Positions 9,763-15,302 of a stretch of DNA of 64,000 nucleotides are shown piece after piece. Under the pieces are notes generated by a model. That model was not told the origin of the DNA. It saw only the letters and a program-made list of their open reading frames with translations, and ran no database searches. The stretch covers positions 248,001-312,000 of the forward strand of contig NZ_JARHTQ010000004.1 of the NCBI RefSeq assembly GCF_029223525.1. Reading direction: 5' to 3'. Within the stretch, counting starts at the first letter, position 1. Every line of letters starts with the position of its first letter. The position numbers and the translations under genes were made by a program. Source of the stretch: Streptantibioticus ferralitis (GTDB lineage: Bacteria > Actinomycetota > Actinomycetes > Streptomycetales > Streptomycetaceae).

Positions 9763-9976
9763 GAGGGCTCCCTGGTAAGGGTGTTGACAGGCGTTCGGCT
9801 TGTCGCGCTGCCGATCGTGGCATAGGCCACACACCCGTGGTGGGCACTCCTGGTGGTGAGTCCCGGACCGCGTTCTGTCGACCGGCCCGGTCCGCCCTGG
9901 GCCCGCCGACTAGACATACTCGCGGGCCGGAGTCAAGGTTCGGTCAAGTAGTTGCGCCGATGTGCAAGAAGCAGGC

Positions 9977-9982
9977 TAGACT
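9977..9982 (+). promoter_or_regulatory. -10 box for riboswitch/Nramp transcript
   Basis: TAGACT fits the actinomycete TANNNT -10 consensus and lies about 20 nt before the start of the M-box. A weak TTGCGC lies upstream with non-ideal spacing. It is the best promoter candidate for the riboswitch-led transcript. Confidence 0.45.
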
Positions 9983-10002
9983 TCAAACGAAGTTGCAAGA
10001 GG

Positions 10003-10162
10003 CACCTCGTTCGGTGAGGCGTCTGCACGGACACAGGCCACTGATCCCACCCGTCGAGAGACGCTCCGGATCAGGACAGGTCTCCCCGAGTTAAGGGGTG
10101 ACCCCAAGTGGCTTCCCGCTCTGGGCGGGACACGCCGTGGAGTGCCAAAGCTCTGACGAGTT
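10003..10162 (+). ncRNA. M-box (ykoK) Mg2+ riboswitch
   Basis: The leader shows the ordered conserved blocks of the M-box as I know it in actinobacteria: CTCGTTCGGTGAGG (from 10006), GCACGGACACAGGCCACTG, GTCGAGAGACGC, AGTTAAGGGGTGACCCCAAG and finally AGTGCCAAAGCTCTGACGAG. CTCGT (10006-10010) pairs with ACGAG (10156-10160) to close P1. M-boxes bind several Mg2+ ions and shut off Mg2+ importers when Mg2+ is plentiful. Here it leads to a 25-codon ORF and then the Nramp-fold transporter. The expression platform is probably within 10163-10476, where GC-rich alternative hairpins lie. Confidence 0.9.
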
Positions 10163-10248
10163 GGGGTGAACCGGCCGTTTTCGGGTTGGTCCGCTCCTTG
10201 CCGAGTCCGTTTGGCGCGATGCGCCCCGGCCGGGAGGAGGCGAGAGAA

Positions 10249-10326
10249 ATGGATTGCAGTAGCAGTAGTCCGGGCCATAGTCGGCCCCGCATCCGCTTGT
10301 CCTCGTTGACCTCCGGCACGCGGTAA
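10249..10326 (+). CDS. Leader peptide uORF (25 aa)
   Basis: A short ORF between the M-box and the transporter: ATG at 10249 with a near-perfect GGGAGGAGG ribosome site, stop TAA at 10324. The peptide begins MDCSSSSPGHSRPRI, with a run of four serines then prolines and arginines. The strong ribosome site on such a short frame, placed between riboswitch and transporter, suggests translation here affects folding or termination downstream, by analogy with mgtL/corA leader peptides of enterobacteria. The analogy is inference; the ORF and its site are seen directly. Confidence 0.65.
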   Translation: MDCSSSSPGHSRPRIRLSSLTSGTR

Positions 10327-10411
10327 CCACCTTCCCTGCGCGCACTACAGCACCACTGATCGCGGTCCCGTACGGCCCATGCCGTTTGGCCGCGCTCCGG
10401 CGTGCGCTCGC

Positions 10412-10470
10412 AGGGGGGATTGCTGCTGCGTGCCCCCCTAGCGATGCCCCCGTCGAGGGGGCCTGGGAGG
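10412..10470 (+). promoter_or_regulatory. Mutually exclusive hairpins before the Nramp ribosome site
   Basis: A G6 run (10412-10418), a C6 run (about 10434-10439) and a GCCCCC-GTCGA-GGGGGC hairpin (10446-10461) lie just before GGGAGG. The central C run can pair with either G run, so the ribosome site could be exposed or occluded in alternative folds. This fits the expression platform of the upstream riboswitch or leader peptide; it is inferred from sequence only. Confidence 0.45.
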
Positions 10471-10476
10471 CCCGTC

Positions 10477-12141
10477 ATGACCAACCTGACCACCGCAACG
10501 CCGCCCGCCGCGATCGCGGCGCAGCGCTCGACCGCCGTCCTGGACGACGCGCATGTCGGTGACATCCGCGGTGCGCTGGGCACCATCCGACTGGACGACA
10601 CCGCACCGCGGCTGGGTCTGTCGGCGAAGCTGAAGACCCTGCTGGCCATCGTCGGGCCCGGCCTGATCGTCATGGTCGGTGACAACGACGCCGGTGCGTT
10701 CGCCACCTACGGGCAGGCCGGGCAGAACTACGGCACGAAGCTGCTGTGGACCCTGCTGCTGCTCATACCCGTCCTGTACGTCAACCAGGAGATGGTGCTG
10801 CGCCTCGGCGCGGTCACCGGGGTCGGGCACGCCCGGCTGATCCTGGAGCGGTTCGGGAAGTTCTGGGGCGCGTTCTCCGTCATCGACCTTTTCCTGCTCA
10901 ACGCGTTGACGCTGGTGACCGAGTTCATCGGCATCACCCTGGCCGCCGGATACCTCGGTCTGCCGAAGGCCGCCTCGGTGGTGCTGGCCGCCGCGATCAT
11001 CGTCGCCTCGGCGTTCACCGGCTCGTTCCGCCGCTTCGAGCGGATCGCGATCATCCTGTGTGCGGCGTCGCTGCTGCTGGTGCCGATCTACTTCATCGTC
11101 CACCCGGCCACCTCGCAGATGGCGCACGACTTCGTGGTGCCCACCATGCCCGGCGGTTCCGGTGAGCTGGCGACCGTCATGCTGCTGATCATCGGCATCG
11201 TCGGTACCACCGTCGCGCCGTGGCAGTTGTTCTTCCAGCAGTCGTACGTCATCGACAAGCGCATCACGCCGCGGTTCATGAAGTACGAGAAGGCCGACCT
11301 GTGTATCGGCATCGCGGTCGTGGTCATCGGCGCCGCCGCGATGATGGGCTTCACCGCCGCCGCGTTCGCCGGGACCAAGGGCTTCGGCAACTTCTCCGAC
11401 GCGGGCGGGATCGCCACCGGTCTGGAGGCGCACGCGGGCAAGCTGGCCGGGGTGCTGTTCGCGATCGCGCTGCTGGACGCATCGATCATCGGCGCCTTCG
11501 CCGTGTCGCTGTCCACCGCCTACGCCATCGGCGACGTGTTCGGCATGAAGCACTCGCTGCACCGCGGGGTCAAGGGCGCCAAGGGCTTCTACGCCGTGTA
11601 CGCCGGTCTGGTCGGCGCCGCGGCCGCCATCGTGCTGATCCCCGGCTCCCCGCTCGGTCTGCTGACCGAGGGCGTGCAGACCCTGGCCGGTGTGCTGCTG
11701 CCGTCCGCCTCGGTCTTCCTGCTCCTGCTGTGCAACGACAAGGCCGTCCTCGGGCCCTGGGTCAACGGAGCCAAGACCAACGCCTTCACCTCGGCCGTGG
11801 TCGGAGTCCTGGTCACGCTCTCGATCATCTTGACCGCGTCGGTGCTGTTCCCGGACATCTCCGCCAACGCGATCATGAACATCATGGCCGGCTGCGGCGT
11901 GGTCGGGGTCGTCGCCATCGGCTATGCGGAGGTGCGCCGCCGCCGCAAGGGCTGGGCACGCGCCGGAGCGGGCATCGACCGCAGCGGACGCGACGAGTGG
12001 CGGATGCCGGCGCTGGAGACGCTGACCAAGCCGGTCATGTCCACCGGTCGCAAGATCGGCATGGGTGCGCTGCGCACCTACCTGCTGCTGGCGATGGTCC
12101 TCGTGGTCATCAAGATCGTCGAGGTCGCGCTGGGCCAGTGA
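10477..12141 (+). CDS. NRAMP-fold divalent metal transporter, probably Mg2+ (NRMT-like)
   Basis: Inner-membrane transporter of 554 aa with about 11 TM segments and LeuT/NRAMP-fold signatures (GPGLIVMVGDNDAGAFAT). In canonical MntH-type proteins the TM1 motif is DPGN and TM6 has MPHN. Here the aligned positions read DAGA (about residues 71-74) and APWQ (about 247-250). Both the TM1 asparagine and the TM6 methionine ligands are therefore alanine. Loss of that methionine is the hallmark of NRAMP-related Mg2+ transporters. The upstream M-box independently points to Mg2+. ATG at 10477 has GGGAGG upstream. The transcript ends at a strong hairpin shared with the convergent ABC operon. Confidence 0.85.
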   Translation: MTNLTTATPPAAIAAQRSTAVLDDAHVGDIRGALGTIRLDDTAPRLGLSAKLKTLLAIVGPGLIVMVGDNDAGAFATYGQAGQNYGTKLLWTLLLLIPVLYVNQEMVLRLGAVTGVGHARLILERFGKFWGAFSVIDLFLLNALTLVTEFIGITLAAGYLGLPKAASVVLAAAIIVASAFTGSFRRFERIAIILCAASLLLVPIYFIVHPATSQMAHDFVVPTMPGGSGELATVMLLIIGIVGTTVAPWQLFFQQSYVIDKRITPRFMKYEKADLCIGIAVVVIGAAAMMGFTAAAFAGTKGFGNFSDAGGIATGLEAHAGKLAGVLFAIALLDASIIGAFAVSLSTAYAIGDVFGMKHSLHRGVKGAKGFYAVYAGLVGAAAAIVLIPGSPLGLLTEGVQTLAGVLLPSASVFLLLLCNDKAVLGPWVNGAKTNAFTSAVVGVLVTLSIILTASVLFPDISANAIMNIMAGCGVVGVVAIGYAEVRRRRKGWARAGAGIDRSGRDEWRMPALETLTKPVMSTGRKIGMGALRTYLLLAMVLVVIKIVEVALGQ

Positions 12142-12184: not shown

Positions 12185-13552
12185 TCACAACGCCGCCTCC
12201 GCGCCCGGTTCCAGGCTGAGCACGCCGTCGTCGGCGTCGTAGTCGAACAGCTCGCCGTAGCGGCCCCAGTCGATCGCGATGTCCAGCTGGCGGTGGGCCT
12301 CGTCACCGGTGAACCTCCGGCGCAGCAGGTCGAGGAAGAAGCCCTCGCGCAGCTTGTGCCCCTCGGTCGCGGCCAGAGCCTGGATGATGGCGCGAACCAG
12401 TGGTGCGCGCTGCGCCGCGTACCGTGCGAACAGCTGCTTGCTGGTGAGGATGTCGGCGGCGGCGAACTCCCTGCCCTGCTCGGTCAGGGTGATCCGTGGC
12501 CCCTGGGTGCGGGCCAGGCCCAGCAGAACGGCGGCGTCCACCAGCGGCAGCAGATCGTCGATCTCGAAGCTGAGCTCGTCGGAGATCTCCGCCAGACCGT
12601 CCTCGCCGCCGCGCGCCGCCAGGATCTCCAGCAGCCCGGCCAGCCCGCCCACACTGACCTCGGGCAGCGGCACGGCCAACGGTGTGGCGGTGGGCCGCGG
12701 CGCCGCGGCCGCCACCGCGGGCACCTGCGCGGCGGCGGCCGCCGCCTCCGCGGCTTCCTCCCGGCCGGTGAGGATCCCGTACACCGTGTCGACCAGCGCC
12801 TCGAACTGCGGGGAGCGCCGGTCGCGCGGCCTGGGCAGCCCGACCGTCAACTCGGCCTTGATACGCCCTGGGTTGGAGGACAGCACCAGGATCCGGTCGG
12901 CGAGCAGCACCGCCTCCTCGATGTTGTGGGTGACCAGCAGCATCGAGCGCACCGGCGCCTCATGGCCCTCCCACAGGCCGACGATCTCCCGCCGGAGGTT
13001 CTCCGCGGTCAGCACGTCCAGCGCGGAGAACGGCTCGTCCATGAACAACGCGTCCGGCTCGACCACCAGCGCCCGCGCGACGCCGACGCGCTGCCGCATG
13101 CCGCCGGACAGCTCCTTGGGATACGCGCCCTCGAAACCGTCGAGACCGATCAGGTCGATCGCCTTCAGTGCCCGCTCCCGTCGCAGGTCCTCCGGGACAC
13201 CACGGGCCTGCAGGCTCAACTCCACGTTCTGCTGGACGGTCAACCACGGCAGCAGCGCGAAGGACTGGAAGACCATCGCGACCCCGGGGTTGGTCGCGGT
13301 CAGCGGCGTGCCGCGGTACGAGACGGTGCCCGCCGACGGCGCGATCAGCCCGGCGAGGCACCGCAGCAGCGTGGACTTGCCGGAACCCGACTTGCCGAGC
13401 AGTGCCACGATCTCGCCCTCCCCGACCTGCAGGCTGATCGCGTCGAGCACCGGAAGCTCCCGCCCGTCGGGCGTGGTGAACGTCTTGGTCACCGCTTCGG
13501 CCTGGACGATCGTCGGCCCGGCGTCGGGGGTACGGGACGTGGTGGTCGTCAT
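12185..13552 (-). CDS. ABC transporter ATPase, nitrate/sulfonate type with AAA-associated domain
   Basis: Cytoplasmic ATPase of 455 aa. Walker A is GKSGSGKST at 53-61, the Q loop MVFQSFALLPWLT, the signature LSGGMRQR, and Walker B ALFMDEPFSALD, followed by the switch histidine in LVTHNIEEA. The NtrD/SsuB-like ATPase (1-260) is joined by an Ala/Pro linker to a C-terminal 'AAA-associated' winged-helix-like domain (about 310-445), an extension found on this transporter subclass. It sits 13 bp downstream of the permease gene on the same strand, forming one operon. No substrate-binding protein gene is adjacent, so the substrate is unknown. Confidence 0.9.
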   Translation of the reverse strand: MTTTTSRTPDAGPTIVQAEAVTKTFTTPDGRELPVLDAISLQVGEGEIVALLGKSGSGKSTLLRCLAGLIAPSAGTVSYRGTPLTATNPGVAMVFQSFALLPWLTVQQNVELSLQARGVPEDLRRERALKAIDLIGLDGFEGAYPKELSGGMRQRVGVARALVVEPDALFMDEPFSALDVLTAENLRREIVGLWEGHEAPVRSMLLVTHNIEEAVLLADRILVLSSNPGRIKAELTVGLPRPRDRRSPQFEALVDTVYGILTGREEAAEAAAAAAQVPAVAAAAPRPTATPLAVPLPEVSVGGLAGLLEILAARGGEDGLAEISDELSFEIDDLLPLVDAAVLLGLARTQGPRITLTEQGREFAAADILTSKQLFARYAAQRAPLVRAIIQALAATEGHKLREGFFLDLLRRRFTGDEAHRQLDIAIDWGRYGELFDYDADDGVLSLEPGAEAAL

Positions 13553-13565
13553 CGGCAGCTCCGGG

Positions 13566-15302
13566 TCACAACGCGTAGCGGGTCTCGGCCAGGCGGTAGA
13601 GGCGGCGCCACAGCAGTCGGTTCAGCGCGACGACGTAGACGCTCATCACCGTGACCCCCACCAGGATCTTGGGGAAGTCGCCGGTACCGGTCGCCTTCGC
13701 GATGTACGCGCCCAGTCCCGTCGCGGTCAGATGGTGCCCGCCGAAGTTGACGACCTCCGCGACGATCGAGGCGTTCCAGGCGCCGCCCGCCGCGGTGATC
13801 CCGCCCGTCACGTAGTACGGGAAGACCGCGGGCAGGATGAAGCAGCGCCAGCGCAGCCGTCCGCCGATGTGGAAGCAGGTCATCGCCTCACGCAGGTCGG
13901 AGGGGATCGCCGAGGCGCCCGCGATGACGTTGAACAGGATGTACCACTGCGCGCCCAGCGCCATCAGCAGAACGCTGCCCGCGTTCAGCGAGATGCCCAG
14001 CGCCACGAACGCGGCCGTGGCGAACGGGAAGAGGAAGTTCGCCGGGAAGCTGGCGAGTACCTGCACCACCGGCTGGGCGAATCTGGTGACCTTGGGGTTC
14101 ATACCGATCCACACCCCGATCGGCACCCACACCACCGTCGCGACCACCAGCAGCAGCGCCACCCGTCCGAACGTCGCCGCGCCCAGCGCGAAGGCGTGCC
14201 CGAACTCACCGAGCCCCACCGAACCGCGGACATAGCCCAGCGCCTTCCACGCGCCGTAGAGGACCGCCACCGCGAGCGCACCGGCGAAGAACACATCGCC
14301 GGTGCGCTCCCGTCCGTCCGGCCTGGTCAGCGGGTGCTCGGCGAGCCCGAACGGCCGCGCGGCCTCGTCCAGCGCCCGGCCCGCCGACCGCAGCGGACGC
14401 GCCATCAGGTCCGGCAGCGAGGAGCGGCGCAGCAGATCCAGTACGACGCTGCGGGGCCGCTCCGCCGCCTCCGACTCCTCGACCCGGAACCGCTCCGACC
14501 ACGCCACCATCGGCCGCCAGAACAGCACGTTCACGCCGATCACCATCACCACCATCACACCGATGGCGATGCCCACCTCGCGAAGGTCGCCCTTGCCGAT
14601 CGCGGTGGCCGCGTAACTGCCGATGCCCGGCAGCGCGTACTGGTGGTTGAGGACGCTGATGGTCTCCGAGGCGGCCAGGAAGAACCAGGCGCCGCCGAAG
14701 CTCATCATCCCGTTCCACACCAGCGGGATCATGCCGCTGGGCACATCGAGCCGCCAGAACCGCTGCCACTTGGTCAGCCGCATCACCCGCGCCGCCTCGT
14801 CCAGCTCGCGCGGCTGGCTCATCAGCGAGTGGTAGAAGGCGAACGTCATGTTCCACGCCATCGATGTGAAGATCGCGAAGATGGAGGCGCACTCCAGACC
14901 CAGCGTGGAGCCCGGGAAGAAGTTGATGAACGCCGTCACGACGACGGACAGAAAGCCCAGCACCGGCACCGACTGCAGGATGTCCAGCACCGGAAGCAGC
15001 ACCTTCTCGGCCCTGCGCGCCCGGGCCGCGGCCGTTGCGTAGGCGAAGGTGAACAGCACCGAGAGGACCAGCGCGATGAACATCCGCAGCAGCGAGCGCA
15101 CCGCGTAGAACGGCAGGTTGGCCGGGTCGGTCGACACCGTCGTCGGTGCCTGGCCGGGCAGGAAGGGCGCGTTGAGCGACGGCGCCAGCTTCAGCAGCCC
15201 GTACAGCAGCGCCACCAGCGCCGCCCCCACCAGCACATCCACCCAGCGCAGCCCGGGACGGCGCCAGACACCCCGCGACGGAAACCCGCCCGCGCCCGCC
15301 AC
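13566..15302 (-). CDS. ABC transporter permease with two fused permease domains
   Basis: Inner-membrane protein of 578 aa holding two complete BPD_transp_1 permease halves (about 15-285 and 325-575). Each half has its EAA-like loop: RELDEAARVMRLTKWQRFWRL in the first half, and SDLREAMTCFHIGGRLRWRC in the second. One polypeptide thus supplies both membrane subunits of the importer. The start is GTG at 15302 with GGAGGTGAGG upstream. It is first in the operon with the ATPase gene. Convergence with the riboswitch-controlled metal transporter may only reflect gene order. Confidence 0.88.
   Translation of the reverse strand: MAGAGGFPSRGVWRRPGLRWVDVLVGAALVALLYGLLKLAPSLNAPFLPGQAPTTVSTDPANLPFYAVRSLLRMFIALVLSVLFTFAYATAAARARRAEKVLLPVLDILQSVPVLGFLSVVVTAFINFFPGSTLGLECASIFAIFTSMAWNMTFAFYHSLMSQPRELDEAARVMRLTKWQRFWRLDVPSGMIPLVWNGMMSFGGAWFFLAASETISVLNHQYALPGIGSYAATAIGKGDLREVGIAIGVMVVMVIGVNVLFWRPMVAWSERFRVEESEAAERPRSVVLDLLRRSSLPDLMARPLRSAGRALDEAARPFGLAEHPLTRPDGRERTGDVFFAGALAVAVLYGAWKALGYVRGSVGLGEFGHAFALGAATFGRVALLLVVATVVWVPIGVWIGMNPKVTRFAQPVVQVLASFPANFLFPFATAAFVALGISLNAGSVLLMALGAQWYILFNVIAGASAIPSDLREAMTCFHIGGRLRWRCFILPAVFPYYVTGGITAAGGAWNASIVAEVVNFGGHHLTATGLGAYIAKATGTGDFPKILVGVTVMSVYVVALNRLLWRRLYRLAETRYAL

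Follow-up and report, generated by a model that had tools for sequence, protein, structure and literature searches.

The 64,000-nucleotide stretch of Streptantibioticus ferralitis DNA analysed here (contig NZ_JARHTQ010000004.1, positions 248,001 to 312,000; hereafter the window) contains an M-box magnesium riboswitch, a short open reading frame (ORF) in the leader behind its aptamer and the gene of an NRAMP-related transporter. The leader ORF goes with the M-box across the actinomycete class and not with this transporter, an association that suggests a working role for it within the M-box switch. As such leaders precede Mg2+-linked genes of many kinds, we take them to be a class-wide translated expression platform that acts in cis and is not the partner of one transporter, with any effect of the encoded peptide remaining putative. 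The presumed Mg2+ uptake gene of the window is probably governed by a two-part leader, in which the M-box is followed by this translated platform. The association of an M-box with an NRAMP-related Mg2+ transporter (PMC4072509) and the presence of an upstream ORF (uORF) behind M-boxes in mycobacteria (PMC12810186) are already known, and the new elements are the spread of the leader through the class, the lack of any dependence on which gene follows it, and its codon and hairpin signature. Among titles and abstract openings of the open-licence literature, no report was found of an M-box leader ORF outside mycobacteria or of actinomycete M-box NRAMP genes.

Occurrence of the leader behind actinomycete M-boxes

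The aptamer matches the full length of the covariance model RF00380 and scores 133.1 bits (gathering score 44 bits), which bears out the M-box that an earlier note had read from the letters of this DNA. The leader ORF extends from ATG 10249 to TAA 10326, with its Shine-Dalgarno (SD) sequence 8 nucleotides (nt) 5' of the start; it begins 76 nt after the aptamer and ends 150 nt before the transporter gene. The earlier note had rightly described a 25-codon ORF with a strong ribosome site, but had missed that it accompanies the M-box across the class irrespective of this transporter. The window shows the arrangement of the uORF2 (Rv1805A) type, in which an M-box with an anti-SD is followed by a strong SD and a short ORF. 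The features of this region are as follows.

9999-10172, + strand: M-box (ykoK) Mg2+ riboswitch aptamer (RF00380, 133.1 bits, E 1e-29, model positions 1-169)
10170-10190, + strand: hairpin I between aptamer and anti-SD (arms 10170-10176 and 10184-10190); 94.6% of cells paired, two-sided changes in 4 of 7 pairs over 38 leaders
10194-10203, + strand: anti-SD CTCCTTGCCG, able to pair with the leader SD region 10231-10239; 94.2% of cells paired
10232-10240, + strand: SD GGGAGGAGG of the leader ORF, from the sequence and alignment A1
10249-10326, + strand: leader ORF of 25 codons, product MDCSSSSPGHSRPRIRLSSLTSGTR; 117 of 139 actinomycete M-boxes by the strict rule given below, shuffled mean 2.6
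10272-10287, + strand: RNA hairpin within the leader codons, GGGCC-N6-GGCCC; 93.2% of cells paired (38 leaders)
10327-10404, + strand: C-rich stretch 3' of the leader stop (34 C, 21 G), a possible Rho loading region, from the sequence and C/G counts in related leaders
10412-10439, + strand: candidate hairpin III (AGGGGGG/CCCCCCT), near the transporter SD, from the sequence and inspection of alignment A1
10447-10461, + strand: candidate hairpin IV (CCCCC/GGGGG), on the same basis as hairpin III
10465-10470, + strand: SD GGGAGG of the transporter, from the sequence
10477-12141, + strand: transporter gene from ATG to stop, 554 amino acids (aa), predicted NRAMP-related and of Mg2+ type, site D71-A-G-A74 and T244-T-V-A247-P-W249; from Pfam, the EleNRMT match, the tree and the residues

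Under a strict rule (GGAGG or AAGGAG, a start 40-130 nt 3' of the aptamer, and 13-60 codons), a leader is present behind 117 of 139 distinct M-box loci of the class, compared with a mean of 2.6 and a maximum of 5 in 20 dinucleotide shuffles; a chance ORF is thereby ruled out. This rule and the shuffles were adopted because a looser leader rule also fires in a phylum sample (13 of 21 loci, three of them belonging to the class). In the family sample, 84 M-boxes occur in 54 of 150 genomes, with a leader at 79 of the 84 by a simple rule. The class sample has M-boxes in 24 of 345 genomes, and leaders continue there, examples being MSSSDSPGRSP (group f4 g20, two other loci of which have PPE genes), MSSGSSPQP, MSPGHSPRLSW and MPEGNSQQP. 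Leader length ranges from 19 to 47 aa.

The genome of S. ferralitis (8.8 Mb, 110 contigs) contains three M-boxes, and the two outside the window each have an SD and a short leader ORF, which rules out a leader tied to this transporter. At the 36 M-box loci that do precede it, a leader was recognised in 34 by a looser rule and in the remaining two by eye. Across the samples, the genes behind M-box leaders include NRAMP-type genes and genes for MgtE, CorA, MgtC, a P-type ATPase, PPE proteins and a permease of the ATP-binding cassette (ABC) type, and 15 of 16 proteins scanned behind M-boxes have Pfam hits (L099 has none). This diversity also bears on the proposal, made for Rv1805A as a partner of the PE20-PPE31 system, that the leader encodes a trans-acting microprotein. 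Such a role would agree with the conserved N-terminal residues and with an M. tuberculosis homologue outside an M-box context (PMC12810186), but like leaders precede unrelated gene families and the C-terminal part of the window-type leader is not conserved. We consider it very improbable, and a microprotein conserved over its full length was rejected on these same two grounds.

A terminator-like site (a hairpin with a U-run, as in the Bacillus type of platform) was looked for 3' of the window aptamer and not found. In a rough scan, 18 of 152 class loci had such a site within 350 nt 3' of the M-box, a single one of these lying within 120 nt. Outside the class, 10 of 18 M-boxes had one, in every case within 120 nt.

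Several further observations concern M-box surroundings. The promoter region of the window (repeats region 9932-9998) carries the repeat GTCAAG twice at 9932-9948; upstream of the M-box at locus L006 lies the palindrome GCTACTTGCGTCGATACGCAAGTAGC, and a palindrome pattern is found 5' of 21 of 149 M-boxes. Tandem M-boxes 650 nt apart occur in L122 (1197-1373 and 2023-2196) and also in L008 and L041; a leader and a small 93-aa ORF lie between the two M-boxes, and the transporter follows the second. Two small-protein families are the first genes behind some M-boxes, with 90-104 aa (L005, L008, L009, L014, L038) or 84-85 aa (L006, L040, L051). Outside the class, L201 and L203 have an M-box and a terminator-like site, followed by an ORF with a strong SD that begins with MESDPGHR or MESDPGSR, a start resembling that of actinomycete leaders.

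Codons, residues and helices of the leader

Most leaders have an early acidic residue and an early proline. An acidic residue lies within residues 2-9 in 108 of the 117 leaders, mostly at codon 2 (GAC 46, GAT 31, GAA 3, GAG 1), and acids are rare further on. Proline is found within residues 2-10 in 113 of 117, and the first proline after residue 3 occupies positions 5-8 in 105 of 117 (position 8 in the window, position 7 in the uORF2 type). The window leader, with Asp2 as its one acidic residue and Pro8, combines early acid and proline in the manner of mgtQ and MgtL. MgtL, like mgtQ, represents the ribosome-destabilising type of leader in front of a Mg2+ transporter gene.

Within the first 12 codons, serine before proline is encoded by AGT in 126 cases, by AGC in 8 and never by TCN, and AGT makes up 181 of 438 serine codons in 67 leaders versus 7 of 1004 in a set of downstream ORFs that includes six read in the wrong frame. 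Directly 3' of the AGT and proline codons lies the hairpin GGGCC-N6-GGCCC, with variants GGGUC/GACCC and GGGGC/GCCCC. Among 66 distinct window-type leaders, the core around Pro-Gly-His is better kept than the C-terminal 12 codons, with 0.16 nonsynonymous (pN) and 0.31 synonymous (pS) change, and pN is 0 for its glycine and proline. The 78 nt 3' of the leader stop contain more C than G in 60 of 61 related leaders, versus 46 of 61 coding controls.

Three helices, namely hairpin I, the anti-SD:SD helix and the leader hairpin, were tested jointly in alignment A1 (38 leaders) against 500 shuffles. The share of paired cells (94.1% versus 88.8%), the number of double changes (43 versus 8.9) and the covariation score (0.227 versus 0.126 +- 0.008) all exceed the shuffled values, with none of the 500 as high in any of the three, and all pairing measures drop when the helix partner is slid. 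Hairpin I supplies most of the covariation support. In the anti-SD:SD helix, one of nine pairs changes on both sides, from U-A to C-G, in 10 of 38 leaders that all belong to one group of alike sequences, and this may represent one event; the second pair of this helix is absent in 12 of 38. The leader hairpin has one of five pairs changing on both sides, in 4 of 38. Because related sequences are not independent, the counts in this section exceed the number of separate events.

An alternative is that the leader is a plain relay. In that case translation as such would be all that counts, and the conserved words would serve the RNA, as SD, anti-SD and hairpin, and carry no peptide signal. The restriction of serine before proline to AGT or AGC out of six possible codons, the covarying pair of the leader stem, the drift of the C-terminal codons with pN at least equal to pS, and the variable leader length are all consistent with such a relay. 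On the other hand, the acid at codon 2 persists where codons have changed synonymously or between Asp and Glu, and the core glycine and proline show no nonsynonymous change; these two, however, also lie in or beside the stem. We give the relay somewhat less than an even chance. A more ambitious proposal is that the nascent peptide itself responds to Mg2+, by way of its early acid and proline, slow AGT codons and a hairpin where the mRNA enters the ribosome. Mg2+ would then be sensed twice in succession, by the riboswitch and by the ribosome, in a manner shared by the Mg2+ transporter types of the class; this we put forward tentatively and regard as rather unlikely.

The transporter and its metal site

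The transporter matches Pfam Nramp with 263 bits. Among solved structures, EleNRMT (7qia), an NRAMP-related Mg2+ transporter (NRMT), comes first with 166 bits, followed by 10ky, a divalent metal cation transporter, with 73.6 bits, whereas MntH chains reach at most 48.1. Asp71, Glu149 and Gln401 align with site residues of EleNRMT, helix 6 carries the TxxA-P-W motif (APWQLFFQQ aligned with APWMMFFNQ of EleNRMT), and the histidine positions of helix 6b are occupied by Trp249 and Gln254, which leaves no protonable histidine there, as in NRMTs. The site differs from the published NRMT signature, DxxG-TxxA/T (PMC8806188), in reading DxxA-TxxA.

In a tree of 53 rows, the window and EleNRMT share an 18-row clade (100/99), with the MntH-type clade apart (100/100). 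The structure-match scores, the site residues and this tree together rule out a canonical MntH. The window lies in its own subclade, sister to that of EleNRMT with bootstrap values that are not fully settled, and a group keeping the methionine of transmembrane helix 6 (TM6; L271, L287) falls between the two. Of the named relatives placed in the tree, Streptantibioticus rubrisoli comes closest, with 95% identity over 453 columns; the genus belongs to Streptomycetaceae.

Homologous loci were collected from named records with two scan patterns, and the following counts concern the best 80 of 546 loci; counts for TM6 are biased, as the TM6 word was among these patterns. An M-box lies in front of 36 of the 80, all of which read DAGA, and the 44 without an M-box, many of them from Burkholderiaceae, read DAGA in 43 cases and DTGA in one. 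In the family sample, all 42 loci with a recognised motif in the first transmembrane helix have DAGA as well.

The DAGA and APWQ motifs named in the earlier note are both present. Its Mg2+ reading holds with respect to the riboswitch and the Mg2+-type transporter family, but its claim that the active site points independently to Mg2+ is not supported as it stands. Mg2+ transport by EcoDMT, a Mn2+ transporter, arose neither when the methionine was removed, which let in Ca2+, nor when the site was converted completely to the NRMT residues (PMC8806188). Because DAGA is common with and without an M-box, and in view of these EcoDMT mutants, the residues alone are no proof of Mg2+ transport. It is the riboswitch that carries the Mg2+ inference and is the stronger argument, as it likewise was for the transporters of Shin et al. 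(PMC4072509). Sequence comparison supports an NRAMP-related transporter of Mg2+ type, and Mg2+ as the metal carried is partly supported.

The transporter might instead mainly import Mn2+ or another divalent metal, with the M-box only co-regulating it. Consistent with this are the DxxA site in place of DxxG, the position of the TM6-methionine group between the window subclade and EleNRMT, the Mn2+ transport of EleNRMT itself (PMC8806188), and the non-M-box NrmT of Acidobacterium, which rescued Mn2+ uptake but Mg2+ uptake only weakly (PMC4072509). The M-boxes in front of 36 of the best 80 homologous loci, the separate clade of MntH-type genes and the lack of an MgtE match in this genome argue in the other direction, and we hold this alternative to be unlikely. 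The genome also has two CorA matches; its single NRAMP-family match and the lack of MgtE speak for the two-part leader with a Mg2+ importer as its product.

In the subclade, a conserved N-terminal stretch (AVLDDAHVGDIRGALGTI in the window, 10534-10587) and about 100 C-terminal residues (11845-12141) fall outside the EleNRMT match. At L268 and L269 (group f4 g20), M-boxes precede NRAMP-type genes with DAGG and TTVAPW, which correspond to the published NRMT signature. The "manganese-type" M-box class of PMC12810186 may be of Mg2+ type.

Convergent to the transporter, an ABC ATPase with an AAA_assoc_C domain and a double-domain permease are encoded at 12185-15302 on the minus strand. This pair recurs with 55-60% identity in L222 and L223, where it follows an M-box and leader (in L223 after MgtC), and in L236 it comes after an MgtC-like gene; at three transporter loci that lack an M-box (L124, L127, L137), about 0.4-1.5 kb at most separates it from the transporter. 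It is a candidate Mg2+-linked ABC importer; against such a link, no more than 7 of 296 class genomes possess the permease, and an M-box is missing at six further permease loci.

Proposed switch and comparison with known systems

The proposed mechanism comprises four steps. The M-box aptamer would first sense Mg2+, as expected from its RNA family. At high Mg2+, the anti-SD CTCCTTGCCG would pair with the leader SD and block leader translation, and at low Mg2+ the leader would be translated; this step draws on the conserved anti-SD:SD pairing with its one compensatory change, and control by the aptamer is presumed. Leader translation would then keep Rho off the C-rich stretch and so decide whether the transcript beyond is completed, the presumed players being the early acid, the proline, the rare AGT serine codons and the hairpin just 3' of them; it may also set whether the transporter SD is open. 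Finally, the product would import Mg2+. In a folding test, the computed accessibility of the leader SD rises with a free P1 strand compared with an absent one in 84 of 117 leaders (p 3e-7; 0.40 versus 0.21 in the window).

Several results weigh against this platform. SD accessibility does not exceed that obtained with a shuffled P1 strand (65 of 117, p 0.12), and coupling of aptamer to SD is thus not shown class-wide. Termination in M. tuberculosis occurs mainly at a site 5' of uORF2 (PMC12810186), which speaks against a simple Rho gate by leader translation in that species. The strict rule fires at 6 of 18 loci outside the class and misses 22 of 139 within it, including leaders beyond its limits (L106, L149, L154), lost starts (L114, L118) and a lost frame (L086). 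An early acid is lacking in 9 of 117 leaders, among them those of groups f17 and f18, and purifying selection is not seen in the last 12 codons (pN 0.40, pS 0.33 in the 66 distinct leaders). Under shuffles that ignore relatedness, and with a structure drawn on one of the aligned sequences, two measures stand out less clearly: 9 of the 500 shuffles gave as many pairs with double changes (6 versus 3.7) and 25 gave as many further pair types (21 versus 17.7). In 11 of 38 leaders, pair four of the leader hairpin is non-standard.

If the proposal is true, a supposed mycobacterial peculiarity with a suspected protein role becomes the general cis output stage of actinomycete M-boxes, and the role of Rv1805A-type ORFs turns into a question testable in Streptomyces. 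It would also suggest how high-GC bacteria operate, without an intrinsic terminator, a riboswitch that uses one elsewhere, extend M-box-controlled NRAMP-related transport to actinomycetes, and suggest that some M-box-linked genes labelled as manganese transporters are of Mg2+ type.

Among known systems, the NrmT genes of Clostridium acetobutylicum (Ca_c0685 and Ca_c3329) likewise have an M-box before an NRAMP-related gene, which gives Mg2+ transport there, but that M-box works with an intrinsic terminator, whereas the window has an SD and a leader ORF; the M-box NrmT examples are mostly from Clostridia and Deltaproteobacteria (Shin et al. 2014, PMC4072509).

EleNRMT belongs to the same family as the window transporter and shares the TxxA-P-W motif of helix 6, the Asp, Glu and Gln of the site and the lack of helix 6b histidines (PMC8806188). 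The window differs in having alanine for Gly58, the unmatched N-terminal and roughly 100-residue C-terminal stretches, and a separate subclade.

Salmonella mgtQ resembles the leader of the window: it is a short ORF in front of a Mg2+ transporter gene, its SD is strong, acidic residues come early and a proline codon lies in a stem. It sits, however, between two operon genes, and the system as described in the available text has no M-box (PMC8092293). Ribosome destabilisation, which was tested there, is attributed to its Asp2 and Glu5, and the composition of the actinomycete leaders suggests that they might act similarly.

The closest parallel is provided by the pe20 and rv1535 M-boxes of M. tuberculosis with uORF2 (Rv1805A), which share with the window the order of aptamer, anti-SD, SD and short ORF with early proline, as well as the lack of an intrinsic terminator. 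For pe20, results from reporter fusions and from depletion of Rho speak for a platform that controls translation of uORF2, together with Rho-dependent termination. The leaders described here are probably homologous to the uORF2 peptide, as judged from their place, SD and early Ser-Pro rather than from comparison with a printed sequence. The uORF2 peptide has been called mycobacteria-specific, with a suspected PE/PPE role (PMC12810186), whereas the leaders described here occur class-wide before unrelated genes, and the AGT-Pro codons and the hairpin within the codons are features of the present leaders.

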